Shown here piece after piece: positions 2,491-63,870 of a DNA stretch of 64,000 nt. The notes under the pieces were generated by a model, which saw only the letters and a list, made by a program, of their open reading frames with translations, searched no databases and was not told where the DNA came from. Both the position numbers and the translations under genes were made by a program. Source of the stretch: Bacteroidaceae bacterium (GTDB lineage: Bacteria > Bacteroidota > Bacteroidia > Bacteroidales > Bacteroidaceae); the NCBI GenBank assembly GCA_017416805.1, contig JAFQBB010000036.1, positions 62,001-126,000 on the forward strand, written 5' to 3'. Numbering within the stretch: the first letter of the stretch is position 1; every line of letters starts with the position of its first letter.

Positions 2491-2574
2491 TTATCCCAAG
2501 CTTTGGTTTAGTTATCTCAAAGTTTGGTTTAGTTATCTTAAAGCTTAGTTTAGTTGTCCCAAAGCTTGGGATAA
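2491..2574. repeat. 21-bp tandem array, four units, with inverted ends
   Basis: Four consecutive 21-bp units, each with a TTATC/TTGTC start and a central AAGCTT or AAGTTT. The array begins TTATCCCAAGCTT and ends with its exact reverse complement AAGCTTGGGATAA. It lies in a gene-free region. Three other arrays of 22-bp period but different sequence occur in this window. Confidence 0.8.
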
Positions 2575-2648
2575 TGTCTTTTTAGGCATTCTTGGTTTAT
2601 TTTTGGGCAGTTTTCAATGGATTTGATGGCTGAAAAGACGTTTATCTT

Positions 2649-2804
2649 TCACCCCTCTCCCCCATCCGCCACCAGCATACCGTTGGTTTCTTCCTCTACA
2701 GGTGCATACGGGCGGACTTTGTGGAGGGCGTAGTTTTCCAGATAGATTTGGTTGAGGGTGCGCTCAAGGCCTTTCAGGGTGAGGTCGCGACGGGAGGGCT
2801 TCAT
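2649..2804 (-). pseudogene. 51-codon orphan copy of the vsr 3' end
   Basis: An ATG overlapping the stop codon of the DUF4143 ATPase (ATGA) opens a 51-codon frame that reads MKPSRRDLTLK...YAPVEEE, almost identical to the last ~51 residues of the Vsr protein encoded at 4142-4663. At DNA level about 145 bp match with only a few differences, so the duplication is recent. It lacks all catalytic parts of Vsr. It may be translated by coupling to the ATPase, but is most simply a gene fragment left by recombination. Confidence 0.8.
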
Positions 2805-3952
2805 ATCTTAAAATGCCGATAATTGACAATGCCGTCTAAAGTGGAGACTGTTTGTTCTTCGCCCGCATAGATGACAGCGGACTTGATGAGGCGGTCACCC
2901 AAGAGTTTCCCCAAATAGTGAAGGCCACTGAGAAAATCGCGCGTAAAGGTTTGCGAGGATTTTATTTCGTAAGCCTCGTATTGAAAACTTCTTTGGCGAA
3001 GCAAATCCACCTCATGTTGGGAGCTGTCGCGATAGAAATAGAGGTTCGGTTCTTTGCCTTGATTGACCAATTGCTTGTATGCCTCGACCACCACGTAGTT
3101 TTCAAAGATATTTCCTCTGAGGGGGTGTATAGCCAATTGCTGTTCGGTTTCGATTCCTAGCAGATAGCAGAGCAGTCCTGTGTCGAAGAAATAGAGTTTG
3201 GGAGCTTTGATGAGACGTTTACCTATGTTCTCATAGAAGGGTGAAAGGGTGAAAGTAATGTAAGAGGCTGTGAGAATGGAGAGCCACGATTGGATGGTCT
3301 TGACACTGACTCCCACGGCATTAGAGAGTGCTGATGCATTGAACTCCGTACCTGCGCGTCCGGCTGCCAGACGGATGAAGGTTTGGAAATCGCGCAGATT
3401 GGTGACATTGACAATGCGCCGCACATCGCGCTCTACATACGTGGTGTAATAGTTGGGATAGAGCAAATGATAGGGTTGTATGCCTGCCCATACGGCCGGA
3501 TAACAGCCTCTGAGCAACAAGGTGTCGGTACTGACATCTGTGGTGGCAAGCCCGTCCAACTCTTGCAACGAAAGTGGCAACAGGGTGAGTACTGCTGCTC
3601 GTCCGGCCAATGACTGACTGATATTTTCCAACAAACTGAAGTTGCTGCTGCCGGTGATGACGTAGCGACGGTCGGGATTGGCATCAGAGATGACCTGTAT
3701 ATAGGAAAACAGTTCGGGATAGTTCTGTGCTTCGTCAATGATGACGCCTTGGGTATAGGCCGACAGGAAGGCTTTAGGGTCGGTCGCTGCTTGTTCGCGC
3801 ACTGCTATATCTTCCAGGTTGACGTATGCGTAATCGGGAAACACCTGTTTGCACAATGTTGTCTTCCCCGATTGCCGGGGTCCCGTGATGGTTATCACCT
3901 TGAAGTAGGGTATCAAATCCCTAAGTGTTTGCTCTATCTTTCTAGTAATCAT
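2801..3952 (-). CDS. AAA+ ATPase with C-terminal DUF4143 domain
   Basis: 383 residues from the ATG giving MITRKIEQTL. A longer frame reaches 4012, but its extra codons contain the -7 promoter box, so the shorter start is chosen. The Walker A motif GPRQSGKTT is near residue 23 and the Walker B segment GVIIDEAQNYPEL near 70, followed by the sensor-like ITGSSNFSLL. The C-terminal third has the DUF4143 pattern with YEIKSSQTF, a PD-(D/E)xK nuclease-like signature. These ATPases are common in anaerobes and their role is unknown; some associate with toxin-like or defence loci. The gene is flanked by direct repeats of the vsr 3' end. Confidence 0.85.
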   Translation of the reverse strand: MITRKIEQTLRDLIPYFKVITITGPRQSGKTTLCKQVFPDYAYVNLEDIAVREQAATDPKAFLSAYTQGVIIDEAQNYPELFSYIQVISDANPDRRYVITGSSNFSLLENISQSLAGRAAVLTLLPLSLQELDGLATTDVSTDTLLLRGCYPAVWAGIQPYHLLYPNYYTTYVERDVRRIVNVTNLRDFQTFIRLAAGRAGTEFNASALSNAVGVSVKTIQSWLSILTASYITFTLSPFYENIGKRLIKAPKLYFFDTGLLCYLLGIETEQQLAIHPLRGNIFENYVVVEAYKQLVNQGKEPNLYFYRDSSQHEVDLLRQRSFQYEAYEIKSSQTFTRDFLSGLHYLGKLLGDRLIKSAVIYAGEEQTVSTLDGIVNYRHFKI

Positions 3953-4001
3953 CCTTGTAGTATAAAAGTATGCAAATTTGGAGTCTGATTCCAAATCTGC
4001 A

Positions 4002-4009
4002 CAAAAATA
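4002..4009 (-). promoter_or_regulatory. -7 box (TATTTTTG) for the DUF4143 ATPase
   Basis: TATTTTTG on the minus strand, about 50 bases upstream of the chosen ATG at 3952; it lies within the longer frame and so argues against the upstream start at 4012. Confidence 0.55.
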
Positions 4010-4141
4010 CATCTTCTATTTGATATACACAAGTTTATGAATGATATTTTGCGGTAAAATGGGGAAATTAAATGTTTTACCCTGCAATGCGCACCTTTCA
4101 TGTTGCTAATTTTCCCCATAGTGCGCACGTTTTTACTCTAC

Positions 4142-4663
4142 TCAAGTAGTGGTAACCTCTCCCCCATCCGCCACCAGCATACCGTTGGTTTCTTCCTCTA
4201 CAGGCGCATACGGGCGGACTTTGTGGAGGGCGTAGTTTTCCAGATAGATTTGGTTGAGGGTGCGCTCAAGGCCTTTCAGGGTGAGGTCGCGACGCGTGGG
4301 CTTCAACTGGCACTCCCACAGGATGATGGTGTGCCAGCCGAGGAGGCGGAGCTGGATGCGCTTCTGCATGTCGCGTTCGCGGTTGCGCTCTATCTTGGCT
4401 TTCCAGAAGGGGGTGTTTGTCTTGGGGAGGACGAAGTATGGGCAATCTTCGTGGCCGTGCCAGAAGCATCCGTTGATGAAGATGACTGTCCGATATTTTC
4501 GCAACACAATATCGGGTGTGCCGGGCAGGCGCTTGACGTTCACCCGATAGCGGAATCCGCGAGAGAAGAGGTAGCGGCGCACCATCATCTCGGGCTTCGT
4601 ATTGCGGCTTCGGATGCTCTTCATGCATCGCCTCCTTTGTTCGGGTGTCAGTCGGTCGGGCAT
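4142..4663 (-). CDS. vsr: Vsr, very short patch repair mismatch endonuclease
   Basis: 173 residues. Vsr nicks DNA 5' of T:G mismatches made by deamination of 5-methylcytosine. Family motifs are present: CMKSIRSRNTKPE near the N-terminus, LPGTPDIV (catalytic Asp), INGCFWHGHEDC (zinc and catalytic His region), NRERDMQ and LGWHTIILWECQL. The C-terminal tail from about residue 120 (LTLKGLERTLNQIYLENYA onward) is repeated at two other places in the block. It starts 8 bases after the BRO-Fic gene, so the two are probably co-transcribed. No cytosine methyltransferase, the usual partner, is seen in the window, so this is an orphan vsr. Confidence 0.9.
   Translation of the reverse strand: MPDRLTPEQRRRCMKSIRSRNTKPEMMVRRYLFSRGFRYRVNVKRLPGTPDIVLRKYRTVIFINGCFWHGHEDCPYFVLPKTNTPFWKAKIERNRERDMQKRIQLRLLGWHTIILWECQLKPTRRDLTLKGLERTLNQIYLENYALHKVRPYAPVEEETNGMLVADGGEVTTT
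4150..4310. repeat. vsr 3'-end repeat, copy within vsr
   Basis: About 145 bp here match 2649-2804 almost exactly, and about 80 bp match 5690-5790 with a few changes. All three copies have the same orientation and lie at the 3' end of a gene. Confidence 0.85.
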
Positions 4664-4671
4664 GGGGGATA

Positions 4672-6877: not shown

Positions 6878-6963
6878 AAAAGAGTTACGAGCTACGAGTG
6901 ACGAGCTACAAGTACATTCGGCTGAAAATCAACTTGTCACTGGTAGCCCGTAACTCGTAGCTG
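6878..6963. repeat. Inverted pair of 7-bp TAGCTAC-family arrays
   Basis: GTTACGA, GCTACGA, GTGACGA words on the left; their reverse complements on the right, separated by about 20 bases. Confidence 0.7.
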
Positions 6964-7134: not shown

Positions 7135-10005
7135 ATGAAACATTCAAAGCTACTAATTCTTGGTGCCATGCTCTCCTTCACGGTGGCAGAGGCACAGGTG
7201 ACCCCGGCGGTGCAGATGGAGCCGTTGACACGCGGTGTGATGGCCATGCCGGCACAATCGAGAGGCATCTACGTGAGCTGGCGCTTGCTGGGCACGGACG
7301 ATGCGAAGACCACGACCTTCAACCTCCTGCGCGACGGCAAGCTGATAGCACGCAACATCTGCGGACGTACGAACTTCGTTGACCCCAACGGTACGGTGGA
7401 CAACCAGTATCAGGTGGTGACGCTCGTAGATGGCAAGGAGGTGGCCACCAGCGAGGCGGCTACCCCGTGGACAGACAAGTACAAGGTGGTGCAACTGGAC
7501 CTCCCCGCCAGCGGGGTGGACGACGTGACGGGCGAGACCTACACCTACACACCCAACGACTGCTCTGCCGGCGATGTGGATGGCGACGGGGAGTATGAAA
7601 TCATCGTGAAATGGATACCCTCGAACAAGACCGACAACGGCGGTGAGGGACGTCATCCGGGCCTTGAGTACATAGACTGCTACCGCCTGAACGGCGAAAA
7701 GCTGTGGCGCATCGACATGGGCATCAACATGCTGGCGGGCGACCACCACACGCAATACCTTGTCTATGACTTCGACAAGGACGGAAAGTCGGAAATCATC
7801 ATGCGTACAGGCCCCGGCGGTAAGGACGGGTTGGGCAACTATGTGAACCAGGTGGCCGACGACCCTGCCATCAAAGCCGCCGACAACACACGCGACTGGC
7901 GTGCCTCGAACGGTGCCCGCATGGTGGGCGGACAGGAGTACCTGACCGTGTTCGAGGGGGCTACGGGTAAGGCCATACACACCATCTTCTACAACCCCAA
8001 CCGCGATGGCGGATACGGCGGAGCGGCATCGGGCACGGTGCTCAACTGGGACGACCGCTCGGGAAAGAAGGACTATGTGGCCTCGTACGGCAACCGCGGA
8101 AACCGATTCCTGGCGGCGGTGGCCTATCTGGACGGACAGGACAAGCGACCCTCGGCGGTGATGTGCCGCGGGTACTACACCTACTCCTACCTGTGGGCGG
8201 TGGACTTTGACGGAGAGAAATTGAAGCACAGATGGTTGCACGGCTCGGTGTCGAGAACCAAAGTGGAGCTGACGGATTCCACCATGACCAAGACATCGCG
8301 CACGTACAACAGTAATACCTTCGGCACGAGTAACAGCTACACGGCCTACGGGCAGGGTAACCACAACCTGAGTGTGGCCGATGTGGATGCCGACGGATGC
8401 GACGAAATCATCTACGGCTCGGCCACCATCGACAACGACGGATGGCTGCTCTACTCCACCGGACTGGGTCACGGCGATGCCATGCACGTGGCAGATATGA
8501 TACCCTCGCGCCCGGGCTACGAGGTGTTCCGTTGCAACGAGAGTTCGCCTTACGGCATAGCCATGTTCGATGCCCGCACGGGAGAGGTCATCTTCCACCA
8601 GACGGCCGACGGTGACACCGGACGAGGCATAGCTGCTGACATCAGCGACAAGTACGAAGGATACGAATTCTGGGGACCGAAGGGCAACAACCCGCGCGAG
8701 ACGGCATCGGGTGAGTTCAACACCGTCATCAACTCGGCACCCTCGATGAACTTCCGCATCTATTGGGACGGCGACCTGCAGGACGAGCTCTACGACGGTG
8801 CGCTGAACAGTTCGACAGGCGTATCATCGCCCCGCATAACGGATTGGAACGGAAGCCAGTATGTGAACACATCAGTGGGATACAACAACTCGCAATCGTG
8901 CAACTGGACAAAGGCCACTCCCTGCCTGCAGGCTGACATCATGGGCGACTGGCGCGAAGAGATGATCATGTGGAACAAGAATGACCCCTCGCAACTGAAC
9001 ATCATCGCCACAAACATCGAAAGCAAGCACCGCGTGCCCACCCTGATGCACGACCACACCTACCGCATGGCCATCGCCTGGCAGAATGTGGCCTACAACC
9101 AGCCGCCTCACCTGGGCTACTACCTGGCAGGGGCAAACTTCAACATCGAGGGCGAAGAGGAGTTCCTCGAGGAGGTGAAACCTGAAGAGCCCCCCGGCGA
9201 CGAACCCTTGGGCGAGAACGTGCTCTTGGCCTACACCTTCGAGAAGGGCGAGGCTGCCGACTACTGGAAACGCGGAAACGGCTCGCTGGTGGAGCCCATG
9301 TTTGACGGTTCGACGGGTCGTGCGGCCAGCATCGTAGCCAGTGCCGACAGGGCCGACTTCTTCCTGACACCGGCCGACTTCACGGGTGTGACGGCCTATA
9401 CCCTCGACCTCGACCTGGCCATCGTACAGGGCAACAAGACGGCCTACTTCACCGTGATGAGCCAGTCGGCTCCCGACGAGGTGGCCAACAACTGGGGATG
9501 GTTCTGGGTGACCACGGAAGTAGAGGTGCACAACCCCTACCTCTTCGAACTGACCATACCGGGAGGAACCACCGCTACGGTGAACGAACAGATATTCGAG
9601 GGCGGGACAGAGCGCAAGAACCAGGGCACATGGACATTCACAAGCAGCCACTGGTATCACCTGACACTCAACGTGGATGTACCCACGGCCACAGTGAAAT
9701 ATCAGATGAAGGACAAGGCCAACGGTGCCACCGTTCTGGAAGGTACCTACACCCTGCGCACCGGCGAAAGCCCCTTGATGAAGGGTATCTACGAGCGCAA
9801 CAACCGCAACGGATACGACCCGGGTGCCATCCTGATAGACAATGTCATCATCACCAAGGCGGACAATGCAGATGCCATCGAGTCCATCTATAGGCCCGAA
9901 ACGGCTCCTGCCATCTACTACGACCTGATGGGCCGCCGACTGGATGGGGCACCCACACGTCCGGGCATCTATATCTCGAATGGAAAGAAGGTGGTGGTGA
10001 GGTAG
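7135..10005 (+). CDS. Secreted rhamnogalacturonan lyase (PL11) with accessory domain
   Basis: 956 residues from the ATG giving MKHSKLLILG, chosen because it begins a signal peptide (cleavage near residue 20) and lies downstream of the promoter box. Residues ~22-660 are a polysaccharide lyase family 11 domain, which cuts the rhamnogalacturonan I backbone of pectin by beta-elimination. Calcium-binding DxDxDG motifs are visible (DVDGDGEYE ~147, DFDKDGKSE ~212, DVDADGCDE ~415). A proline/glutamate-rich linker near 680 leads to a ~230-residue beta-rich module, probably LamG-like or carbohydrate binding, that PL11 enzymes often lack. The last ~40 residues (IYYDLMGRRL, then PGIYISNGKKVVVR) resemble the C-terminal tails of secreted Bacteroidota proteins. 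The stop codon is the first word of a 7-bp repeat array. Confidence 0.9.
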   Translation: MKHSKLLILGAMLSFTVAEAQVTPAVQMEPLTRGVMAMPAQSRGIYVSWRLLGTDDAKTTTFNLLRDGKLIARNICGRTNFVDPNGTVDNQYQVVTLVDGKEVATSEAATPWTDKYKVVQLDLPASGVDDVTGETYTYTPNDCSAGDVDGDGEYEIIVKWIPSNKTDNGGEGRHPGLEYIDCYRLNGEKLWRIDMGINMLAGDHHTQYLVYDFDKDGKSEIIMRTGPGGKDGLGNYVNQVADDPAIKAADNTRDWRASNGARMVGGQEYLTVFEGATGKAIHTIFYNPNRDGGYGGAASGTVLNWDDRSGKKDYVASYGNRGNRFLAAVAYLDGQDKRPSAVMCRGYYTYSYLWAVDFDGEKLKHRWLHGSVSRTKVELTDSTMTKTSRTYNSNTFGTSNSYTAYGQGNHNLSVADVDADGCDEIIYGSATIDNDGWLLYSTGLGHGDAMHVADMIPSRPGYEVFRCNESSPYGIAMFDARTGEVIFHQTADGDTGRGIAADISDKYEGYEFWGPKGNNPRETASGEFNTVINSAPSMNFRIYWDGDLQDELYDGALNSSTGVSSPRITDWNGSQYVNTSVGYNNSQSCNWTKATPCLQADIMGDWREEMIMWNKNDPSQLNIIATNIESKHRVPTLMHDHTYRMAIAWQNVAYNQPPHLGYYLAGANFNIEGEEEFLEEVKPEEPPGDEPLGENVLLAYTFEKGEAADYWKRGNGSLVEPMFDGSTGRAASIVASADRADFFLTPADFTGVTAYTLDLDLAIVQGNKTAYFTVMSQSAPDEVANNWGWFWVTTEVEVHNPYLFELTIPGGTTATVNEQIFEGGTERKNQGTWTFTSSHWYHLTLNVDVPTATVKYQMKDKANGATVLEGTYTLRTGESPLMKGIYERNNRNGYDPGAILIDNVIITKADNADAIESIYRPETAPAIYYDLMGRRLDGAPTRPGIYISNGKKVVVR

Positions 10006-10073
10006 TGACTAGTTACTAGCTACTAGCTACGAGTGACTAGCTACTAGTGACGAGTGACTAGCGGATAGTGACT
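10003..10073. repeat. 7-bp repeat array starting at the PL11 stop codon
   Basis: Ten consecutive words such as TAGTGAC, TAGTTAC, TAGCTAC, GAGTGAC; the first TAG is the stop codon of PL11. Confidence 0.8.
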
Positions 10074-10114
10074 ATCGCCTCCAACTCCCTTCGGGGGGTA
10101 TAGACAATCATCAT

Positions 10115-10525: not shown

Positions 10526-11035
10526 ATGAATAGCGTAACATTGAAAGGAAAACCCATAGGATTGCAGGGGACATTTGTCAAAGCTGGCGATATGGCACCC
10601 GACTTCTGCCTGGTGAGCGAAAATCTGAGTGACTTCACCCTGAAAGATGGCGCAGGGGGAAACCTGGTGCTGAACATTTTCCCAAGCCTGGACACCGATG
10701 TGTGTGCCAACAGTGTGAGACGATTCAACAAGATGGCCACCGAACTTCCCCACACACGGGTGCTTTGCATCTCGCGCGACCTGCCATTTGCCCAACGGCG
10801 CTTCTGCACCGTGGAGGGCCTGTTTTATGTCACTCCCCTCTCCGACTTCCGCCCCCATTCGGACTTTGGCGAAGCCTACGGCGTACTCATTGCCGACGGC
10901 CCCATGGCAGGCCTCCTTGCCCGTGCCGTGGTAGTCATCAACCCCGAAGGCAAGGTGATATACTCCGAACTGGTGCCCGAAATCACCAAAGAACCCGATT
11001 ACGGAAAGGCATTGCAGGCGATTAGTGGCTGTTAG
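10526..11035 (+). CDS. tpx: Thiol peroxidase Tpx
   Basis: 169 residues, the normal Tpx length. Tpx is an atypical 2-Cys peroxiredoxin that reduces hydrogen and alkyl peroxides with electrons from thioredoxin. The peroxidatic cysteine is in SLDTDVCA (~residue 60), and the resolving cysteine in DLPFAQRRFC (~94), both family hallmarks. It stands alone between PL11 and uxaB. The TAG stop is the first word of a 7-bp repeat array. Confidence 0.93.
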   Translation: MNSVTLKGKPIGLQGTFVKAGDMAPDFCLVSENLSDFTLKDGAGGNLVLNIFPSLDTDVCANSVRRFNKMATELPHTRVLCISRDLPFAQRRFCTVEGLFYVTPLSDFRPHSDFGEAYGVLIADGPMAGLLARAVVVINPEGKVIYSELVPEITKEPDYGKALQAISGC

Positions 11036-11150
11036 TGACTAGTGACTAGCTACTAGCTACGAGTGATGAGCTACGAGTTTAAGGTTCAAGGTTTAAGGTT
11101 TAAGGTTCAAGGTTGCAAGGTTTAAGGTTTAAGGTTTAAGGTTGCAAGAT
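11033..11150. repeat. Two adjoining 7-bp repeat arrays after tpx
   Basis: TAGTGAC/TAGCTAC words run from the tpx stop codon to about 11078, followed at once by a second family, AGGTTTA/AGGTTCA/AGGTTGC, to about 11148. Confidence 0.8.
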
Positions 11151-18592: not shown

Positions 18593-20509
18593 TTATTCGT
18601 TTCTTTTCATCCGTATCAATTCGCCATGTAACTCTATCAGTTCTTCGGCTTGCAGATAATGGATTGTCTTTTCAACGTTCTTTCGTGTACAAATCTTTTC
18701 TGCTTCATCCATGAATGAACAGATGGACACTTCTCCACCTTCATTTTCTGCCATTTGTTTCAGCATGGCGAAAAGATTGTTGAAAATACCACGTTTCAAC
18801 CCTATCGGGTGCTTGTCGAGGCATACATCACATTGATTGCAATCATACCTGTTTTTCTCTCCAAAATAAGAAAGGAGCATCCGGCTTCTACATTTGTCAG
18901 TTGCGGTGGCATACGTTATCATTGTCTGTATGCGTTGTTCATATATGGCCTTGCGCTCTTCGTACACAGATGGAGGTATTACAAGGCGTTCGGACTCTTC
19001 GCGTCGGCGCAGATATCGTATGAGTGGTGTTTTTTTGTGAGGTACATAGCGGATAATGCGCATAGCATTCAGCGACTTCAATATCTCATATACCTGATGG
19101 TAGCTTAAACCTGTGCGGTGTGCCAAAAGGTATTCGTCGATATAAACATAGTCAGAAAAAAGCCCTGTATATGACCTCAATACGGCGCGCATGACATTTT
19201 CCGTATCAGCATCTGAGCGGTGGGAATAGAGTTCATCGCGGCTTACAATAAACATCAATCGTGAAGCATTTTCCTGTTCGTCCACATATTCGATATATCC
19301 TGCCTGAGATAGTAATCGCAGAGCACTGTCCGTGGGTACAGGAAAATGTTTGAAGGCCTGACAAAATTTGCTGATGTCGAATTCGTAGGTTACCCCTTCT
19401 CCATCACCCATTGCCAATTGATAGTAGTATCCCAAATGTTCATAAACTTCACGGATAAAGCTTTTGTCAGGGAATGTGCTTGGTATGCGTTGTTTGAGTA
19501 CGGTAGGAGCATGTGAATCCACTAACAATATGGCATAGGCATACATTCCATCGCGTCCGGCACGTCCTGCTTCTTGAAAATAAGCTTCGGGTGAGTCGGG
19601 TATGTCCACATGTATAACCATCCTGACATCCGGTTTGTCAATACCCATGCCGAACGCATTTGTAGCCACCATTACGCGCGATTCTCCTTTTTGCCAACGT
19701 TGTTGTCGTTCATCTTTCTCGATATTAGGAAGTCCGGCATGGTAGAACTCGGCTGTAACACCTTGTTGGCGGAGAAAGGTGGCAACCTCTTGTGTGCGTT
19801 GTCTGCTACGGGTATATATGATGGCGCATCCTGCAAGTTGTTGCAGAATGTGAATCAGCTCCTTCGGCTTATTGTCCGTCCGACGAACAACGTATGCCAA
19901 GTTTTTGCGTTCGAAACTCATGCTGAATACATTTTCCTGACGGAATTCCAAACGCTTCTGTATATCCTTTACTACCTCTGGAGTGGCCGTAGCTGTCAGT
20001 GCCAATATGGGTACATGTGGAAGCAGTTTCCGAATATCGGCAATTCGTAAATAAGCAGGACGGAAATCGTATCCCCATTGTGAGATGCAATGGCTTTCAT
20101 CTACCGTGATGAAACTTACGGGGATACGTTTGATTTTAGCAAGAAAAAGGTCGGACGATAATCTTTCAGGTGAAATATAAAGGAACTTGTAATCGCCGAA
20201 AATACAGTTCTCAAGTGCTATGATTATTTCATCGCGGGTAAGGCCTGTATGGATAGCTACAGCCTTGATGCCTCGGGCACGCAAGTTGGCAACTTGATCT
20301 TTCATCAGGGCTATCAGTGGAGTGATGACTATACATACACCTTGCTGTGCCAATGCTGGTACTTGAAATGTGATGCTTTTTCCACCTCCTGTAGGCATAA
20401 GGCCTAACGTATCATGCCCACTTCCGATACTTTCAATAATCTCTTCTTGAATGCCCCGGAAAGAGGTATAACCCCAATATTGTTGCAATATGTCGTGATA
20501 ATTTGCCAA
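18593..20509 (-). CDS. recQ: RecQ family ATP-dependent DNA helicase
   Basis: 638 residues. RecQ unwinds DNA 3'-5' in recombination repair. Motif I is PTGGGKS (~42), motif II DESHCISQWGYDFRP (~137, DESH instead of the usual DEVH or DEAH), motif VI QEAGRAGRDG. The zinc-binding cysteines are in CRSRMLLSYFG and CNQCDVC (~537-560). The HRDC domain seems absent. The start codon is TTG and lies inside an 8-bp repeat array: the first codons (L/M-A-N-Y-H) are built from the words ATTGGCAA and ATTATCAC, so the original start has probably been overwritten. It lies just downstream of recJ on the same strand. Confidence 0.93.
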   Translation of the reverse strand: MANYHDILQQYWGYTSFRGIQEEIIESIGSGHDTLGLMPTGGGKSITFQVPALAQQGVCIVITPLIALMKDQVANLRARGIKAVAIHTGLTRDEIIIALENCIFGDYKFLYISPERLSSDLFLAKIKRIPVSFITVDESHCISQWGYDFRPAYLRIADIRKLLPHVPILALTATATPEVVKDIQKRLEFRQENVFSMSFERKNLAYVVRRTDNKPKELIHILQQLAGCAIIYTRSRQRTQEVATFLRQQGVTAEFYHAGLPNIEKDERQQRWQKGESRVMVATNAFGMGIDKPDVRMVIHVDIPDSPEAYFQEAGRAGRDGMYAYAILLVDSHAPTVLKQRIPSTFPDKSFIREVYEHLGYYYQLAMGDGEGVTYEFDISKFCQAFKHFPVPTDSALRLLSQAGYIEYVDEQENASRLMFIVSRDELYSHRSDADTENVMRAVLRSYTGLFSDYVYIDEYLLAHRTGLSYHQVYEILKSLNAMRIIRYVPHKKTPLIRYLRRREESERLVIPPSVYEERKAIYEQRIQTMITYATATDKCRSRMLLSYFGEKNRYDCNQCDVCLDKHPIGLKRGIFNNLFAMLKQMAENEGGEVSICSFMDEAEKICTRKNVEKTIHYLQAEELIELHGELIRMKRNE

Positions 20510-20590
20510 TGTGATAATATGCCAATGTGCTGATGTGCCAATATGCTAATGTGCCAATGTGATAATGTGCCAATGTGCTGATATAATAAT
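20500..20590. repeat. 8-bp repeat array between recJ and recQ
   Basis: About ten 8-bp words of form GTGCCAAT, GTGCTAAT, GTGATAAT, ATGCCAAT. The recQ start codon is inside. The same family is at 37373-37489 upstream of the RND pump gene. Confidence 0.8.
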
Positions 20591-20644
20591 AAGGGTACGT
20601 CTAAGAAACACAATTGATTGCATCTCTTGACGTACCTCCATTAA

Positions 20645-22610: not shown

Positions 22611-22676
22611 GAAGTGGACTGCCACGCCAGATGAAGTCTTCTGCCAAGGTGAAGGAAGTCCTCTGCCAAGGTGATG
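22611..22676. repeat. 22-bp tandem array, three units
   Basis: Three 22-bp units each starting GAAGT and containing CTGCCA(A/C)G. The final unit extends into an inverted TCTGCCA/TGGCAGA. Confidence 0.75.
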
Positions 22677-31054: not shown

Positions 31055-33598
31055 CTAAAATGTCACATGCAGGCTGATACGAATACCGTCATTGTCTCCA
31101 TTGGGATTGTCTCTATACGTAAGTCGATGCACATAGTCTATGCGCAATACTTTGAAGATGTTTTCTATTCCAGCTCCAACCTCAATGTATGGTTTTTCTC
31201 CCATCAATCCGCTTCCTGTAGGAAATAAAGGTAAACGATTGGAACTTGTAGGCAAGTTCTTCTCGGACAAATCTCCCCATATTCCTCTACAGGTCAACAC
31301 TTCTCTCCATTTCAACCGTTTGATTAGTGGTAATCGGTTAAATAGCCAACCGTTCAAGTAATAACTTACATCCCACGAAACATATCGGTCATTAATAAAT
31401 TCCAATGGATTCATCAGTGCGTATGATTCAGGTTGGATGGTATATGATAAGTTTGCGTTTGGAATAATTAATAATGGAAAAGGTACAGAATTCCAGATTT
31501 GGCCTCCTTTTAATATTATATCCGTGTAACCGAAAGCAGAAAACCAAAGGCGCATTTGTACACTGGCTTCTGTATGGTGAAAGTTATATTCACCACCTAA
31601 CAGTCCCTTTACCCCCATTGTATGGGATATGGCAAACACTGGTTTGTCTTTTGATACAGGAAAGCGGTTCCACTGTGTCTGCACGAACTTCTCGCCCGGT
31701 GCATAGCGCATTTGGAGTTCAAGTTCCGAAGTGTTGATGTCATGGAAGAATTCTGTTCTATTACTGTTTGAAAGGCGTTCGAACGGTATCAGATGAGTTG
31801 CTTCATAACGATGGTGTCGCATGATGGCTTTCCATGAAAAATTGTTGTGGTATTCATGGGTATATATCAGTTGGTTTTTCCATTCATAGCCCAATTGGTC
31901 ATTAGGCTTTCGTTTCAACATCAAGAAAACATTATCCTTGCTCGTATATAAATAGTGCTGGCCATATTGGTTGACATCAAATTCGGAATGCAGCCTAAGG
32001 GAATGGATTGGGAACTCATTGGCATATTCCTTTTTTTTCTTGAATGAGTATTCCACTTCGGCCAGGTGTTTCAGTTTTTTGTCCCTTATTCCGTATGCTA
32101 TAAATCCACGTACCATCAAATGGGGGTTAAGATGGGCACTTGTCATTCCGCCTGCTCGTAAGCGGACTCCTTCCAGTGTGTTGCCACTGATACTGGCATT
32201 CACTGGACCGTAGTAAAAATGGGGAGCCTTTTCTGTAGTTGGGATATAACCTGTAAAAAGAATTTTCAATACTTTTTCACTCCAATAATATACAGGATTT
32301 TCTCTTAACTGGGTCATCAAATCGTGAACAGAAGATTCTCCTTTAGAGATTTTACCTATACGATTTTCGTTCCAAAATTCTTCTTCACGCGATAATGCCT
32401 CGGAGGTTTCTATAATTTGTTCCGGACGTTCAAACATTAGTAACTGCTCATCGGTAGGCTGAAAGGAATGATTGTCATACGTAACTTCACGTCTGGCATA
32501 TATACCTCCTTTTTCTTCGCCAACGAGGTCGGCTGTTGTATATTCGTGAGTAAGCAGACGGGTACTGTCTGCCGGATTTCGTTCAAACTCTTGTTCTATT
32601 TGCAAGAAGTTAACAAAATTCAGATTTATCTTTTCTGGCAGATTCAGTAATACCCGTTTTACAAAATAGGTGGAATCCACCGTTACATACAGATGACCTG
32701 TAAAACCGAACGATTCGGAATTGAAGGGGACAAATGTCAGATCTACACACTGTTCGCCGCCTACTTCTGTTGTATCATTCAGGTAGTATTTATAGAAGGA
32801 AGGTCCAAAACTGCTTAGCGGACTGACAAAACGGTTGGTAAATAATGCAATGTTTGGTTCGTAAATGTCAATATCCTGGAAAACTTCGGCTAACATCATT
32901 TCCAAACTCTCTTTAGGCAACATGTCATCAATGCCATTTTGTTGGCGTGCTTTGACATATTGGCGTTTCACTTTCGGATTATTGCGATATAAATCTGTAG
33001 CCAACCGTTCACGTACAGATACAGGAAGGACTTGTTTGCCTGTAACTGCTGCTGTATCCACATAGTTGTTCAGAAAATCAAACCGCCGATACAGCCATTT
33101 CTGTTGTTCCTCTTCTGTAAAATTGTTAAGGGCTAATACTGTCTTGTCATGTCTGTCCCGTATATAGAATTCTTTCTTGTATGGTGAGTGTTTGTCTTTG
33201 TGCTTCATCATTTCCTTTACGAACCGTACCGCCGGATTTTCCTTTTTATAACGTTCTCGACCGGGTTTGATTACGATCTCTGTCAATTGATAGCTTTCTG
33301 GGACAATATTTATATGTAATGCTTTTTTTAGAGGTAAAGACAAAGGAATTGTTTGTGTGCGATACCCCACAAACGAGATTTTCAACTCTCCTACTCTATT
33401 TTGTACATAAAAGGAGAATTTTCCATCAACATCTGTTTGTACACCATGGCCGGATTGTGGAAAATATACGGAAGCAAAAGGAATGCTTTCGCCCGAAATA
33501 GAGTCTGTCACAACTCCATGTACACGGTATTGCGCGCATAAAGAAAGGATACTAACGCTTGAACAAACTATGAAAATAAACAATCTTTTTATCTGCAT
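31055..33598 (-). CDS. DUF5686 outer-membrane protein with carboxypeptidase-like plug domain
   Basis: 847 residues from the ATG giving MQIKRLFIFIV; an upstream in-frame TTG at 33613 would fall at the transcript start. After a signal peptide comes a carboxypeptidase-regulatory-like beta-sandwich (~25-110, VHGVVTDSISGESIPFASVYF), as in TonB-linked proteins, then the DUF5686 region, whose C-terminal half has alternating hydrophobic strands ending in aromatic LHVTF, consistent with an outer-membrane barrel. Function unknown. A clear promoter box precedes it. Confidence 0.82.
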   Translation of the reverse strand: MQIKRLFIFIVCSSVSILSLCAQYRVHGVVTDSISGESIPFASVYFPQSGHGVQTDVDGKFSFYVQNRVGELKISFVGYRTQTIPLSLPLKKALHINIVPESYQLTEIVIKPGRERYKKENPAVRFVKEMMKHKDKHSPYKKEFYIRDRHDKTVLALNNFTEEEQQKWLYRRFDFLNNYVDTAAVTGKQVLPVSVRERLATDLYRNNPKVKRQYVKARQQNGIDDMLPKESLEMMLAEVFQDIDIYEPNIALFTNRFVSPLSSFGPSFYKYYLNDTTEVGGEQCVDLTFVPFNSESFGFTGHLYVTVDSTYFVKRVLLNLPEKINLNFVNFLQIEQEFERNPADSTRLLTHEYTTADLVGEEKGGIYARREVTYDNHSFQPTDEQLLMFERPEQIIETSEALSREEEFWNENRIGKISKGESSVHDLMTQLRENPVYYWSEKVLKILFTGYIPTTEKAPHFYYGPVNASISGNTLEGVRLRAGGMTSAHLNPHLMVRGFIAYGIRDKKLKHLAEVEYSFKKKKEYANEFPIHSLRLHSEFDVNQYGQHYLYTSKDNVFLMLKRKPNDQLGYEWKNQLIYTHEYHNNFSWKAIMRHHRYEATHLIPFERLSNSNRTEFFHDINTSELELQMRYAPGEKFVQTQWNRFPVSKDKPVFAISHTMGVKGLLGGEYNFHHTEASVQMRLWFSAFGYTDIILKGGQIWNSVPFPLLIIPNANLSYTIQPESYALMNPLEFINDRYVSWDVSYYLNGWLFNRLPLIKRLKWREVLTCRGIWGDLSEKNLPTSSNRLPLFPTGSGLMGEKPYIEVGAGIENIFKVLRIDYVHRLTYRDNPNGDNDGIRISLHVTF

Positions 33599-33621
33599 AC
33601 CTTTTATATACAAAAGAGATG

Positions 33622-33693: not shown

Positions 33694-33759
33694 AAGTATC
33701 TTAAGATAAATGACCAAGTATCTTAAGATAAATGGCCAAGTATCTTAAGATACCTGACC
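33694..33759. repeat. 22-bp tandem array, three units with palindromic core
   Basis: Three 22-bp units, each AAGTATCTTAAGATA plus a short spacer ending (A/G)CC or ACC. The core TATCTTAAGATA is a perfect palindrome in each unit. It sits downstream of the efflux operon. Confidence 0.8.
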
Positions 33760-33801
33760 ATTGAACCTATATAGACTAATTTTCTATAGGACGGAATTAG
33801 A

Positions 33802-34095
33802 TTAAATGCTTTCCTCTATATTCCAAACAAAAGCGCGGAGTCCGAGCATCTCAGTTTCTTTGTCCATAGCATGAAGGGCTTCAAGGAGTGGTTTTACACG
33901 TTGGTCTTCCACAATAGTGATGATGGCTGAACACATGCTGGGCCATGCATGGCTGCCGAAGTGAGGCTCACCCGTTTTACTTCCACGGCCTTGCACCTCG
34001 TGGAAATGGCTGAATCCACGGCAATTGAGACGATCGAGCGTAGCAACAATGCGCTCGTGGAAAGCTTGGTCGTATGCGATAAATACTGATTTCAT
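33802..34095 (-). CDS. PG0541-type transporter-associated protein
   Basis: 97 residues with a PII-like (ferredoxin-like) outline: MKSVFIAYDQAFHERIVATL, then GRGSKTGEPHFGSHAWPS and SAIITIVEDQRV. Small proteins of this type are the last gene of RND efflux operons in Porphyromonas and Bacteroides, and probably sense a ligand or regulate the pump (inference). It follows the pump gene after a 7-bp repeat pair. Confidence 0.75.
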   Translation of the reverse strand: MKSVFIAYDQAFHERIVATLDRLNCRGFSHFHEVQGRGSKTGEPHFGSHAWPSMCSAIITIVEDQRVKPLLEALHAMDKETEMLGLRAFVWNIEESI

Positions 34096-37360: not shown

Positions 37361-37372
37361 AATATTCTATTT

Positions 37373-49723: not shown

Positions 49724-52681
49724 ATGACACACCGATTACCGACACTCATCCTTATCCTCTGCCTGGCTCTGTGCGGGCAGGCACAAAACAGCATCGATCT
49801 CTCCGGCCTATGGAGTTTCCAGATTGACCGTGAAGGCGTGGGCGAAGAAGAACAATGGTTCAATGGAAAAAAGAATTTCGACGACATCATCTTGTTGCCC
49901 GGCTCTATGCCTGAGCGCCTGAAAGGTGATGACCCAACCCTGAAAACGCAATGGACAGGGACACTCTACGACAGTTCTTTCTATTTCAATCCCACGATGG
50001 AGGTATATAGAAGAACGGGCAACATCAAGTTTCCATTTTTCCTCACGCCCGACAAGCATTATGTAGGTCGTGCATGGTACCAGCGCTCCATTATTTTGCC
50101 ACGTGATTGGAAGGGACAACGTATTGTCCTGTCCCTTGAAAGACCTCACATCCAGACTACCCTTTGGGTGAATGGCAAACAGGTGGGTAGTCAGAATTCC
50201 CTCTCCGTGCCTCACGTTTATGATGTGACGGAGTTCATGAAGCGAGGCTCCAACACCTTGACTATCTGCGTGGACAACCATCCCGAGACGGTGAAAGTGG
50301 GCGACGATTCGCATAGCTTGAGTGACCAGACACAAGGCAATTGGAATGGCATTGTGGGCAAAATGGTTCTCATCGCCATGCCCAAGACATACATTGACGA
50401 CCTTCAAGTATTTCCTAATGTAGCGGAGAAGAATGCGCTTGTAAAAATGAAGATACAAGCCGACAAGAAGGGTACAGTAAACATAGCACTAAACGCTACC
50501 AGTTTCAACACCCAACAGGCCGAACATTTTTTCCCTACCTCAAAAAAAGTTTTTCTCAACGAGGGAGAAAATCAGGTGGAAATTCTTCTTCCAATGGGCG
50601 ACAATCCTTACCTGTGGGATGAGTTCTCTCCCACCCTCTATCGTCTGAATGCCGAACTGACCAATCATAAATCATCAATCATAATTCATAAATCAACTGC
50701 TACTTTCGGTATGCGTGATTTCCGCATCGAAGGCAAATGGTTCTTTGTTAACGGACGTCAGACAATGTTGCGTGGCACGGTAGAGTGCTGTGTATTCCCT
50801 CTGACCGGTTATGCACCTATGGCGGTGGAGGAATGGGTACGTGTTTTCCGCATCTGTCGCCAATATGGTTTGAACCACATGCGTTTCCACTCCTATTGTC
50901 CGCCACGTGCCGCATTCGAGGCGGCCGACCTCGTAGGTTTCTACCTGCAACCCGAAGGACCCAGTTGGCCAAACCACGGAGTGAAACTCGGTGTAGGACA
51001 ACCCATAGACAAGTATCTGATGGACGAAACCATAGCCCTCAATCGCGAGTATGGCAACCATGCCTCATTCTGCATGTTGGCTTGTGGTAATGAACCGGCT
51101 GGGCGTTGGGTTGAATGGGTAACCGACTTCGTACACTATTGGCAAAAGGCCGACTCGCGCCACGTATATACCGGAGCTTCGGTAGGTGGCGGATGGGCAT
51201 GGCAACCGGCAAATGAATTTCACGTGAAAGCCGGTGCACGCGGATTGGAGTGGAGCAAAAAACGTCCCGAATCATGGAGTACATTCAGTCACAAGATTGA
51301 CACCGTGCGCCAGCCTTTCGTATCACACGAAACCGGTCAATGGAATTGCTATCCCAACTTCAACGAGATTGGCAAATACAAAGGGGTAAACAAGGCCAAG
51401 AACTTCGAGATTTTCCGCGATTTGTTGGATGCAAATGACATGGGACACCAAGGGCAAGAGTTTCTTATGGCCAGTGGCAAGTTGCAAGCCCTTTGCTACA
51501 AACACGAATTGGAGCGCACCCTGCGCACACCCAATTATGCCGGCTATCAGTTGCTTGCACTCAATGACTATAGCGGACAAGGCAGTGCTGTAGTGGGCAT
51601 ACTTGATGCTCTTTGGGGAGAGAAGGGGTACATCACTGCTCCCGAATGGCGACAATTTTGTGCGCCCACCACTCCTTTGGCAAAAATGGATCGTTTTGTC
51701 TATACCGATGGTGACACCTTGCAAGCCACTATTGAATTGAGCCATTTTGGAGAGACACCGCTCACCAATGCCACCTTTATATATAATATAAGGAATAAGG
51801 ATGGGCAAGTGCTCCACACCCAGCGACAAACGATGAAAGAGGTGCCCATTGGCGGACAGATACCATTGGGAGTTGTCAGCTACAAGCTACAGGCCACAAA
51901 CGGTGTTGCGCAACAACTAACATTGGAAGTCCGACTCACTGATTGCGACCAATATCGCTTGCGCCGCACCCAAGGAGAAGGCACTTTGGAGCGCAATTAC
52001 CCCATCCACGAAGTCGTGAACAGTTGGGACTTGTGGGTTTATCCCCAACGCGAACTGGTTGGTTATGAAGACGCAGACTTGATGGTGACCGACACGCTCA
52101 ACCAAGCGGCCATTGACCTTCTCAATCGTGGAGGTAAGGTGCTCCTCACCGCGGCAGGCCGGATAAAATATGGTGCAGGCATTGTGCAACACTTTGTCCC
52201 CACTTTTTGGAATACGTCATGGTTCAAGATGCGTCCGCCACATACCGTCGGTTCATGGATTGATAGCGCTCACCCACTCTTCCGCCATTTCCCGACGGAC
52301 AATTACACCAATTTGCAATGGTGGGAGCTGGCCAATCGGGCACAGTGCATGATGACCAGCCACATACCTGGCCAGTTCAATAGCATCGTGCAACCCATTG
52401 ACACATGGTTCCTCAGCCGTCGTCTCAGCACTTTGTTTGAGGCTCGTGTGGGCAAGGGATGCCTCATTATGACCAGCCTTGATGTACGCAACCGGCTGGA
52501 CAATCGTCCTGTGGCACGCGAACTGATGCACGCTTTACTCTCTTACATGCAATCCGACGATTTCCGCCCCACACAGACGGTAACGATAGAGCAGATTGAG
52601 ACCATCTACACCCATCCCACTCCGGCGGTAGATAGTTTCACTAAAGATTCACCCGATGAGTTAAAACCGAAAATTAAATAA
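49724..52681 (+). CDS. GH2-family exported glycoside hydrolase
   Basis: 985 residues with a signal peptide (cleaved near CGQAQ, ~20). Domains: sugar-binding jelly roll (~20-220, IQTTLWVNGKQVGSQNSLS), immunoglobulin-like, then TIM barrel with acid/base in MLACGNEPAG (~457) and probable nucleophile in FVSHETGQW (~530). The C-terminal third is beta-rich and unassigned. Probable specificity is a beta-galactoside, glucuronide or related unit; it cannot be decided here. Eight bases after the previous GH2 gene. At 50663-50697 five 7-bp words (AATCATA type) lie in the coding sequence and encode the loop NHKSSIIIHKS. Confidence 0.85.
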   Translation: MTHRLPTLILILCLALCGQAQNSIDLSGLWSFQIDREGVGEEEQWFNGKKNFDDIILLPGSMPERLKGDDPTLKTQWTGTLYDSSFYFNPTMEVYRRTGNIKFPFFLTPDKHYVGRAWYQRSIILPRDWKGQRIVLSLERPHIQTTLWVNGKQVGSQNSLSVPHVYDVTEFMKRGSNTLTICVDNHPETVKVGDDSHSLSDQTQGNWNGIVGKMVLIAMPKTYIDDLQVFPNVAEKNALVKMKIQADKKGTVNIALNATSFNTQQAEHFFPTSKKVFLNEGENQVEILLPMGDNPYLWDEFSPTLYRLNAELTNHKSSIIIHKSTATFGMRDFRIEGKWFFVNGRQTMLRGTVECCVFPLTGYAPMAVEEWVRVFRICRQYGLNHMRFHSYCPPRAAFEAADLVGFYLQPEGPSWPNHGVKLGVGQPIDKYLMDETIALNREYGNHASFCMLACGNEPAGRWVEWVTDFVHYWQKADSRHVYTGASVGGGWAWQPANEFHVKAGARGLEWSKKRPESWSTFSHKIDTVRQPFVSHETGQWNCYPNFNEIGKYKGVNKAKNFEIFRDLLDANDMGHQGQEFLMASGKLQALCYKHELERTLRTPNYAGYQLLALNDYSGQGSAVVGILDALWGEKGYITAPEWRQFCAPTTPLAKMDRFVYTDGDTLQATIELSHFGETPLTNATFIYNIRNKDGQVLHTQRQTMKEVPIGGQIPLGVVSYKLQATNGVAQQLTLEVRLTDCDQYRLRRTQGEGTLERNYPIHEVVNSWDLWVYPQRELVGYEDADLMVTDTLNQAAIDLLNRGGKVLLTAAGRIKYGAGIVQHFVPTFWNTSWFKMRPPHTVGSWIDSAHPLFRHFPTDNYTNLQWWELANRAQCMMTSHIPGQFNSIVQPIDTWFLSRRLSTLFEARVGKGCLIMTSLDVRNRLDNRPVARELMHALLSYMQSDDFRPTQTVTIEQIETIYTHPTPAVDSFTKDSPDELKPKIK
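50663..50697. repeat. 7-bp AATCATA-type repeats inside the GH2 gene
   Basis: AATCATA, AATCATC, AATCATA, ATTCATA, AATCAAC in succession, within the coding sequence. The composition is unlike the GC-richer codons on both sides. Confidence 0.65.
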
Positions 52682-58150: not shown

Positions 58151-58157
58151 CAGTTTG

Positions 58158-61243: not shown

Positions 61244-61290
61244 TTTAAATCAAGAAATATGTTATATAACATAAAAAAAGGAGGTAAACA

Positions 61291-61321: not shown

Positions 61322-61327
61322 CATCAA

Positions 61328-61389
61328 GTTTTTCATGGTATTAGATTTAAGGTTAATAAAGGTTGGGTCAAGGCGTTGACCCTTTTTTT
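61328..61389 (+). ncRNA. Candidate ~60-nt small RNA
   Basis: Begins just after the consensus promoter and ends in GGGTCA-AGGCGT-TGACCC (61365-61382) plus seven T, an intrinsic terminator. The body has an ATTTAAGGTTAATAAAGG segment with no coding potential. It could be an independent small RNA, or an attenuated leader of the TauE gene, which however has its own promoter at 61469. Confidence 0.65.
61365..61389 (+). terminator. Intrinsic terminator of the small RNA
   Basis: GGGTCA/TGACCC stem with a 6-base loop and seven T. Confidence 0.85.
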
Positions 61390-61468
61390 GTATCCGTACG
61401 TCAAACAGGCTTTATGCTATTCCCTATTTTAGGATTCGGAGAGGTCTTGAATTCTTGAAAATATTTAG

Positions 61469-61476: not shown

Positions 61477-61498
61477 CACCCGCAAAAAAGGACTCATC

Positions 61499-62224: not shown

Positions 62225-63154
62225 CTAAATAGTAAATACCTCATACCTCTCCAAGGCATCCTGCAACATCTCTTTAATCTTCTTCACCAGCCATTCAGGT
62301 TCGAGTACCTGCAACTGGTTGCTACGGCTCAACACGTGGCTACAGAAGTCGGACGTGGCGTGCATCCTCAGTTCAAAATCAGCATATCCCTCCCCTTCTC
62401 CTATCTCTTGTTGGCTGGCATGTATAGGCAGGTCGCGCACGTAGAAACGTTCGTTGCCGTGTGCTCTGACCACAATCCGTTCAGCCTCCGTATCGCGACT
62501 TAGCAATATGCCGTAATAATCCCTGAACAGTTCCTTGGCACTGAAGTCGGCAGGCAAGTCATACCGTATGTCCGTCAAGGCAATCTCCTTGATGCGGTCG
62601 AAGGAATAGATGCGGAAGTTGTCACCCTCCATGCCATCATCGTGCAACCGGCCGAACACATACCAACGCCTCTTGAACAGCTTGATGCAATATGGTTCCA
62701 ATGTTACCGTCTTCGGTTCTGCATGTCCATATTTCTGATATTCCATACTCAAGCATACCCGTTTCTTCATGCCTTCTATAATCTGCTCCAACCGTGTGCT
62801 TTCCGAGGGGATAGATTCCAATAATATACGGTCTTGCAACGATAGGCTCTCGCTCACCTGATTGCTCACCGACAAGGTGGAGAGCATCCAGTTCTGTACC
62901 GATTCCTCTGCCAGCACCCCTTCGTTGCCTATGTAGTAGCGGTATCCGTCTTGGCGGTCACACTCAATATAGATGCCGAATATGTCCTCAATGGCATCCT
63001 TGTGGCGGTTGAAGGTAGCGCGTGCCAGCTCTACCCCTTCGCTCATTTCCGTGTCGAGCCACTTCTTTTGCAATTCTGCGAAAGAGATTCTGCCCGCCTT
63101 GCGTATAGTGTTCACCAACCAGATGTATTCCTTGAATTTTGCCGATGTTTTCAT
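62225..63154 (-). CDS. WYL-domain transcriptional regulator
   Basis: 309 residues from the ATG giving MKTSAKFKEY; a longer frame to 63193 begins with TTG inside the promoter box, so it is rejected. An N-terminal winged helix (~1-60, ISFAELQKKWLDTEMSEG) precedes the WYL domain (~130-210, KRRWYVFGRLHDD) and a WCX-type C-terminal region. WYL proteins bind nucleic-acid or nucleotide ligands and control defence, repair or metabolism. The target here is unknown; it is convergent with TauE. Confidence 0.88.
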   Translation of the reverse strand: MKTSAKFKEYIWLVNTIRKAGRISFAELQKKWLDTEMSEGVELARATFNRHKDAIEDIFGIYIECDRQDGYRYYIGNEGVLAEESVQNWMLSTLSVSNQVSESLSLQDRILLESIPSESTRLEQIIEGMKKRVCLSMEYQKYGHAEPKTVTLEPYCIKLFKRRWYVFGRLHDDGMEGDNFRIYSFDRIKEIALTDIRYDLPADFSAKELFRDYYGILLSRDTEAERIVVRAHGNERFYVRDLPIHASQQEIGEGEGYADFELRMHATSDFCSHVLSRSNQLQVLEPEWLVKKIKEMLQDALERYEVFTI

Positions 63155-63190
63155 GGGATTTTGTCTTATTATATAATTGTCTGGTAAGTG

Positions 63191-63198
63191 CAAAGGTA
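63191..63198 (-). promoter_or_regulatory. -7 box (TACCTTTG) for the WYL regulator
   Basis: TACCTTTG on the minus strand, about 37 bases before the chosen ATG. Confidence 0.65.
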
Positions 63199-63283
63199 GC
63201 CATTTTCAATGACAGATAGATATTTTATAGGGAAAATATTGAAAAAAGTCAAACCTGTCCCACAATTTGAGACAACACGCAGA

Positions 63284-63291
63284 TAATTTTG
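63284..63291 (+). promoter_or_regulatory. -7 box (TAATTTTG) for the small membrane protein gene
   Basis: TAATTTTG, 44 bases before the start codon; TTTG near 63266 may be a closely spaced -33 element. Confidence 0.5.
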
Positions 63292-63334
63292 CAGAGAAAT
63301 TAATAAAAACATTAACGGTTAAACAATTATAGAC

Positions 63335-63613
63335 ATGAAAACTTTCATCGAAATCAGCCAGCCGTCAACCGGGAAAATCTTCACAAACCAAGTGGTCAAT
63401 CTCGTGTCATTCATCCAAGCTGTATGGAGCAAGAAACCTGTATTGTCCAAGAAAAACACCATCGCACTCGCTTTCCTCTTCTTTGTTTGCATTGCACTCT
63501 ATTTTGGCTGTACTATCTTTTCCATTATCATAGTAGCCCTATTTCTGATTTCATTAGGGATGGTCATCAACGAAATGATCCAATATATCCGCCTCATTCG
63601 CGAATTGGAGTGA
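63335..63613 (+). CDS. Small membrane protein of unknown function
   Basis: 92 residues. A soluble N-terminal ~40 residues is followed by two closely spaced hydrophobic helices (ALAFLFFVCIALYFG, then IFSIIIVALFLISLGMVI) and a short charged end, so it should form a helical hairpin in the membrane. I do not recognise a family. A promoter box precedes it and a 22-bp array follows at some distance. It diverges from the WYL regulator, which may control it. Confidence 0.6.
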   Translation: MKTFIEISQPSTGKIFTNQVVNLVSFIQAVWSKKPVLSKKNTIALAFLFFVCIALYFGCTIFSIIIVALFLISLGMVINEMIQYIRLIRELE

Positions 63614-63750
63614 ATAAGGATTCTTCATTGATGGGACAGACAGGAATTTTATACAATCATCAGAATGCAGTAAATAAAGACTGTATCCTCAAAATACTAT
63701 TGTTTTACTCGATAGACAATAGCTCTTATCACATTAGAAGTACCTTCTGA
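63614..63750. other. Intergenic stretch without recognised feature
   Basis: AT-rich; I see no gene or hairpin until the 22-bp array at 63751. Confidence 0.4.
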
Positions 63751-63870
63751 ATAACCTCTTCACAGCTGTGAAGACATCTCTTGACATCTGTGAAGAGATC
63801 TCTTGACAACTGTGAAGACATCTCTTGACAACTGTGAAGAGATCTCTTCACAGCTGTGAAAAGGTTATAA
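63751..63870. repeat. 22-bp tandem array, five units, with palindromic ends
   Basis: Five 22-bp units beginning CTCTT(C/G)ACA and containing CTGTGAAGA. First and last units carry the palindrome TTCACAGCTGTGAA; the outer flanks ATAACCTCTTCACAG and CTGTGAAAAGGTTAT are inverse copies with one mismatch. Confidence 0.85.

Follow-up and report, generated by a model that had tools for sequence, protein, structure and literature searches.

Intergenic arrays of two-turn period in Bacteroidales: dispersed families with conserved words and rigid spacing, two of them carried by one type of miniature transposon

Why should four intergenic arrays in one bacterial genome share a repeat period and not a sequence? 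The question is raised by a stretch of 64,000 nucleotides, called the window below, from a Bacteroidaceae bacterium (assembly GCA_017416805.1, contig JAFQBB010000036.1; C3:62001-126000 in our numbering). A sequence-only reading of the window had described four arrays of unrelated units with a common period of about 21-22 bp and palindromic units or ends, and had offered two explanations, namely a copying or selection mechanism acting on any starting sequence, or a structural role in which spacing and symmetry matter. Tandem Repeats Finder and direct reading recover all four arrays at the positions described, array 2 being the weakest.

Array 1, 2491..2574, no strand: four adjoining 21-bp units of the form TTA..CCAAGnCTTGG..TAA, with ends TTATCCC..GGGATAA.
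Array 2, 22611..22676, no strand: a weak 22-bp array of two good units and one poor unit, with outer CTGCCA..TGGCAG.
Array 3, 33694..33774, + strand: three TATCTTAAGATA words at 33697, 33719 and 33741, with 22-bp spacing.
Array 4, 63751..63870, + strand: five TTCACAnnTGTGAA-type words with 22-bp spacing, and ends AACCTC..GGTT.

Units within an array are imperfect copies of each other, with identities of 67-86% in array 1 (4 x 21 bp), 86-95% in array 3 (3 x 22 bp) and 73-95% among the five 22-bp units of array 4. In array 2, units 2 and 3 are 91% identical while unit 1 matches both at 55-59%, and Tandem Repeats Finder counts 1.9 copies. The array ends quoted earlier, TTATCCCAAGCTT and AAGCTTGGGATAA, are present, as are two copies of TTCACAGCTGTGAA at 63759 and 63847. 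Array 1 is bordered by an imperfect outer inverted repeat, AGTGCC..GGCATT, at 2475-2480 and 2585-2590, and the outer flanks of array 4 contain an additional palindromic 22-bp 'B' unit, ATACyTTTATnnnATAAArGTAT. In phase with the three words of array 3 lies a fourth, GAACCTATATAG, at 33763-33774, read here as a decayed form of another word, GAACATATGTTC.

The common period is not a coincidence of these four loci. Noncoding DNA was scanned for ungapped three-copy arrays with at least 75% identity and periods of 10-60 bp. The genome of the window (G000; 3.157 Mb in 64 contigs, 91% complete) yielded 34 rows in a 444-kb sample, 21 of them at periods of 21-24 bp (6, 5, 7 and 3 rows in order of period) and 13 at 11-18 bp, with zero arrays of period 19-20 or 25-60. 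Three block-shuffled replicates together gave two rows, each with a period of 10. Three of the 21 rows are multiples of a 7- or 8-mer and two loci were entered twice, so that the rows represent 16 distinct loci. Periods are therefore not broadly spread, and the claimed excess around two helical turns is upheld. Across seven genomes of the same genus (800 kb), 18 of 34 rows had periods of 20-25 bp, with no such row in the 40 kb from G009. Twenty further genera of the family (488 kb, four genera contributing less than 4 kb each) gave 2 of 10, and four genomes from other families (240 kb) gave 0 of 1. The array words vary from species to species.

The four window arrays are unrelated to one another, as had been claimed, but each has relatives in its own genome (weak and diverged for array 2) and thus belongs to a dispersed family. 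Array 1 recurs at four more places (contigs C64, C46, C35 and C10, with 83, 79, 74 and 75% identity), array 3 has eighteen relatives (one weak), and array 4 has five plus a partial one. The three matches of array 2 are weak, two of them being 22-bp arrays of a related word; array 2 resembles the GGCGTGGCAGTACACTACAYCC arrays in L026 and L028. Aligned copies of a family display the same architecture. The word GAACATATGTTC, whose arrays form what is called here the GAAC family, occurs 77 times in this genome and its reversed control not once. The array-3 family, defined by the word TATCTTAAGATA, is present in 9 of 61 genomes searched, all within the genus, and the array-4 family in 5 of 15, own genome counted in both cases. 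An exact 22-mer of array 3 was matched in 15 stretches of named genome contigs. Uncultured Bacteroidaceae or Bacteroides account for 14 of these, 12 of which come from roe deer rectum; the remaining match, in Psychrobacillus, is taken as chance.

Records of Parabacteroides distasonis contain array-4-like arrays and, in six records counting that of the query, array-3-like arrays; a 200-kb sample of this species has no three-copy array at 21-24 bp. The P. distasonis record, although labelled as a plasmid, carries rpoB and other housekeeping genes and is for this reason read as chromosomal. In 100 kb of a Phocaeicola massiliensis record there are two 22-bp arrays, and the family to which they belong occupies 68 places in 27 Phocaeicola records labelled as plasmids (a near-palindrome may count once per strand), the 20 listed all being P. 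massiliensis. A phage origin was considered and rejected: pairs of GAAC words occur in four viral contigs, which are AT-rich and do not resemble the elements described here, and three of which look like one phage type, while the other three word patterns have no match in viral contigs. Two arrays of different words can lie side by side in a single gap (G008:C1:128487-128642, within L103, and L058:46-386). In the relative G012, array-4 relatives (L160, L166 and L169) have further 22-bp units on both sides; these units contain another word and run in mirrored order, from which it follows that one element can hold two words.

Within families, spacing is rigid and the number of units is nearly fixed. 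Adjacent words are 22 bp apart in 69 of 71 intervals of the GAAC family, 109 of 110 of the array-3 family and 44 of 44 of the array-4 family, and 21 bp apart in 10 of 12 intervals of family 1. Four units are found in 19 of 20 GAAC arrays and three in 46 of 55 arrays of the array-3 family, while the array-4 family has four units in 10 of 15 cases and five in the other 5; GAAC elements with one unit and with two units also exist. Constraint falls on the words. Divergence among 19 GAAC elements is 2.5% in words, 25.9% in linkers and 35.4% in flanks. In the main subfamily of 15 elements, changes private to one copy affect 1 of 720 word cells against 15 of 450 linker cells (P 5e-6); over all 19 elements the counts are 1 of 912 against 12 of 570 (P 8e-5). 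It would seem from this that the words have been held after insertion. In the array-3 family, conservation is 88-97% in words versus 74-79% in linkers (17 own copies out of 30 anchored rows, the others having failed the first word or being repeats). Five own copies of the array-4 family diverge by 6% in half-sites, 18% in linkers and 57% in the central two bases, and 13 copies from P. massiliensis, taken from 12 of the 27 family-bearing records, by 5% in half-sites, 6% in unit junctions and 34% in centres. The nearly fixed unit number of each family points to dispersal of whole elements rather than local expansion, and linkers that are specific to their position yet alike between copies indicate that units are not re-copied in place. 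Of the two explanations first offered, the copying of any sequence is not supported in a local form, and a structural role of spacing and symmetry is supported, linkers having drifted between words that keep both their sequence and their spacing.

For two words the mode of spread can be seen. Inverted repeats of 24 bp border several array-3 relatives, and a search with a composite of the array-3 element retrieved the same ends around GAACATATGTTC arrays. These terminal inverted repeats form GGTTCTTCTGCAATTTAGTTGAAA-type pairs 122-205 bp apart in both families. Among 20 elements with both ends, hand-picked from terminal-repeat pairs after removal of L045, of duplicates and of pairs that arose by chance in coding DNA, 9 show 8-bp target duplications (at least 7 of 8 matching; 5 perfect) against 0 of 380 mismatched control pairs, and no other length between 4 and 12 stands out. 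The same ends, without any array, belong to a broken ISL3-family element of the relative G012 (L235). The words TATCTTAAGATA and GAACATATGTTC are thus carried by one type of non-autonomous transposon, a miniature inverted-repeat transposable element (MITE), with ISL3-family ends. The two families share these ends and the linker motifs AAGTGCC and TTGGCC, but not their words, and the array-3 family retains an in-phase fourth site, GAACCTATAATG, that resembles a decayed GAACATATGTTC. ISL3 transposase matches were obtained in 8 of 15 genomes of the genus and none in the own genome at its 91% completeness; no intact autonomous partner with these ends was found, nor was the GAAC MITE found in plasmid records. 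Around the window copy of array 3 itself, the ISL3-type terminal repeats were not recognised. Families 1 and 4 have outer inverted flanks visible by eye, and families 1, 2, 4 and others may disperse by similar mobility.

Two observations concern the surroundings of these elements. At L042, L043, L213 and L218, the DNA adjoining the MITE ends has CACTGAAATCARG or a near match in common, which suggests a preferred or repeated target sequence. Beside array-4 relatives in G002 and G014 stands an insertion sequence that we take to be ISAs1-like, whose end lies exactly 22-23 bp, or one period, beyond the outermost word in six of the seven places found (L153, L157, L165, L268, L269 and L271, not L273). 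Because of this position, the array-4 relatives look like its landing site. The repeated flank had raised the possibility of an insertion sequence as the vehicle of family 4, which was discarded once the flank proved to be this adjoining element.

The symmetry of the units was assessed with unit-permuted controls, in 39 rows of period 21-25 and 21 rows of other periods of at least 14. A whole-unit circular palindrome test was significant in 13 of the 39 rows and was considered too blunt; a local palindrome test at 0.05 was used in its place and was positive in 18 of 39 rows versus 6 of 21. The palindromic units claimed for the window hold for array 3 (P 0.005) and array 4 (P 0.035) and fail for array 2 (P 0.50), whereas array 1 is negative in the tested stretch (P 0.50) and positive in a sister copy (P 0.005). 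Folding was better than in unit-permuted controls (z <= -2) for 20 of 39 rows of period 21-25 versus 4 of 21 of other periods. The stem formation that the sequence-only reading had proposed to check was approached by comparison only: elements with their flanks fold into long hairpins, but compensatory changes are not above chance in the GAAC (0 against 0.29 expected), array-3 (2 against 4.5) and array-4 (4 against 8) families.

Placement between genes is uneven. Of 49 elements encountered during searches, a list that is not a systematic census, 43 could be placed after exclusion of four that overlap an open reading frame and two with a gene on one side only; 20 lie in convergent, 19 in tandem and 4 in divergent gaps. 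Background gaps of at least 150 bp in the own sample number 19 convergent, 66 tandem and 25 divergent, and own-genome elements are over-represented in convergent gaps (14/34 versus 19/110, P 0.009).

The explanation to which these results lead us, with a slight preference over its being wrong, is that the dispersed elements are arrays of sites for dimeric proteins, with a two-turn spacing suited to cooperative binding. Each element carries a small and nearly fixed number of sites, mostly three to five, at a single rigid spacing of 21-24 bp, or two turns of DNA; words or their half-sites remain the same, and mutations that leave the length unaltered fall in the linkers and, in some families, at the centre of the site. 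Each palindromic word would be the putative site of a dimeric DNA-binding protein, and the two-turn spacing would align adjacent dimers along the same face of the helix and so permit cooperative binding. Because ends and linker motifs are common to the two MITE-borne families and the words are not, one element body may be able to carry arrays for different binding specificities. As the elements are over-represented in convergent gaps, they may act near gene ends, as local boundaries of chromatin or transcription or as titration sites, rather than as promoters. A broader proposal, that Bacteroidales carry transposable operator arrays for diversified dimeric proteins in which the body stays and the word is exchanged in concert across units, is distinctly more speculative.

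Three other explanations have to be weighed against cooperative dimer binding. The arrays may act after transcription as long stem-loops, in RNA or as cruciforms, serving as terminators or 3'-end stabilisers with symmetry kept for pairing. Long-hairpin folding, the excess of rows that beat their permuted controls and the placement in convergent gaps all agree with such a role, as do the runs of A and T next to the outer GAAC words, through which both strands finish in T. Array 1 has a terminator-like site at 2553-2575, over its last unit (two such sites found in 2400-2700, 0.3 expected), but both neighbouring genes lie on the strand opposite to it. At L330:2035 and L331:2024, GAAC-type arrays have mirrored changes in units 2 and 3 (GAACTTATGTTA and TAACATAAGTTC in L331), as if half an array had undergone inverted duplication, and ISL3-type ends were not recognised around them; their mirrored middle words would also suit pairing. 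Of 40 pairs predicted for P. massiliensis, 3 have changed on both sides, and there are many G-U pairs, but covariation of global and local stems is below that of shuffles. With compensatory changes at or below chance in the three families, none in 25 pairs according to RNAalifold in the GAAC family, and several words that leave no proper loop, we consider hairpins the strongest of the alternatives and still rather unlikely.

Plain minisatellites, produced by slippage or hairpin-templated copying, functionless and passively carried by MITEs, would account for tandem order and periodicity, for the GAAC elements with 1, 2 and 4 units and for the range of 1-22.8 repeats reported for BrickBuilt, an element of Porphyromonas gingivalis (PMC4596501). 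Unit number is mostly fixed in the families described here, linkers vary by position and are alike between copies, words diverge tenfold less than linkers and the own sample lacks arrays at 19-20 or 25-60 bp, all of which makes this explanation improbable; on account of the nearly fixed number and the position-specific linkers, slippage or hairpin elongation is rejected as sole cause. No paper joining hairpin elongation to tandem palindromic repeats was found in the open-access literature of PubMed Central (PMC). The TnsB sites of Tn7 are 22 bp long, and by analogy the arrays might be needed for transposition only, as sites for a transposase or helper. Their location inside MITEs and their spacing of about 22 bp fit, but the ISL3-family element with the same ends has no array and the words seem to be held after insertion, so that very little weight can be given to this possibility. 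Conservation of words over linkers, fixed spacing and the lack of a compensatory excess together favour cooperative dimer binding over RNA hairpins or slippage.

Several points weigh against this preference. About half of the 21-25 bp rows have no detectable palindromy. Depletion from divergent gaps, taken alone, is not significant (3/34 versus 25/110, P 0.09). The outside flank in the 13 P. massiliensis copies is also fairly conserved, with 10% divergence. Some copies were chosen by their words, which biases towards conserved words, yet most GAAC elements were found via their ends. Terminal repeats and target duplications are shown for one MITE type only, with none recognised for families 1, 2 and 4. 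No binding protein has been identified: the neighbour scan covered 17 of the 20 proteins beside ten arrays, the other three crossing a locus border, and it revealed no regulator common to the 17 genes and a single HU-like protein. The idea of a cognate regulator adjoining the arrays was rejected on these scanned neighbours.

The genes near arrays 3 and 4 of the window are the following.

31055..33613, - strand: DUF5686 / carboxypeptidase-regulatory-like gene, with its 5' end towards array 3.
33802..34095, - strand: gene with a weak P-II-like match; the gap that contains array 3 runs from the 3' end of this gene to the start of the next.
62225..63193, - strand: WYL/WCX-domain regulator gene near array 4.

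Nothing indicates that the WYL/WCX regulator binds array 4. Other short repeats also lie in the window. Intergenic arrays of a heptamer family (ACTCGTA / TAGTGAC / TAGCTAC) are found at 528-589, 6882-6913, 10003-10074, 11033-11060, 34154-34177 and 51878-51899 and recur several times elsewhere in the 444-kb sample; they are distinct from the 21-24 bp class, though some score as period 21. Octamer arrays (GTGATAAT, GTGCCAAT and TAATGTGC) occur at 20495-20591 and 37372-37408, with a longer one at L065:1250-1451. At Rfam gathering thresholds no array of the window matched; the only match was FopS (61326-61392, + strand, 70.3 bits), an Rfam family of paralogous small RNAs of Bacteroidetes.

If the preferred explanation is correct, one kind of mobile element delivers ready-made platforms for cooperative binding between genes in several Bacteroidales, the human gut species P. 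massiliensis included, and the words amount to a catalogue of binding specificities open to direct assay. The BOX elements of Streptococcus and the intergenic mosaic elements of Neisseria are likewise mobile, intergenic and built with modular internal repeats; their repeat units are longer and, unlike the arrays described here, are not known to keep a rigid two-turn spacing. Palindromic operators of the LexA-like repressors of Bacteroidetes resemble the present words as dyad-spacer-dyad sites of the same phylum whose word varies between paralogues; they serve as promoter sites, GGA-N5-TCC and CTAA-N5-TTAG being examples of their words, and the text of that study seen here describes no MITE-borne arrays (PMC8565304). 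Repetitive extragenic palindromes (REPs) and bacterial interspersed mosaic elements (BIMEs) are likewise multicopy extragenic palindromes used by insertion sequences (PMC3733652, PMC1525189), REPs being targets of such sequences (PMC1525189), which recalls the ISAs1-like element beside array-4 relatives; they consist of single or paired hairpins, unlike the tandem 21-24 bp arrays. Nothing closer than BrickBuilt and PgRS was encountered in open-access PMC literature, which is not proof of absence, and the part of PMC5771137 seen here mentions BrickBuilt and not 22-bp arrays. BrickBuilt is an intergenic MITE of P. gingivalis with a 23-nt tandem array, present in 19 copies in ATCC 33277 (PMC4596501). 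It shares with the present elements its occurrence in Bacteroidales, its intergenic location, a tandem array of about two turns and ends that match an insertion sequence of the species. The arrays described here are nevertheless not BrickBuilt, since by-eye comparison with the consensus and the ends as published shows that their words differ from the 23-nt AGAYCATARTATCCTCTCRTRTG and their ends are of ISL3 and not of IS5 type. BrickBuilt has short and variable target duplications and 1-22.8 repeats, in contrast to 8-bp duplications and a nearly fixed unit number, and the main text of the paper does not contain the stem 'palindrom' (PMC4596501). Its word is a single one of 23 nt, in one species and near relatives of it, and that of PgRS/MITE464 has 41 nt (PMC4596501), as against many words at rigid spacing here. 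Should the preferred explanation hold, it may also throw light on the 23-nt period of the minisatellites in P. gingivalis MITEs.

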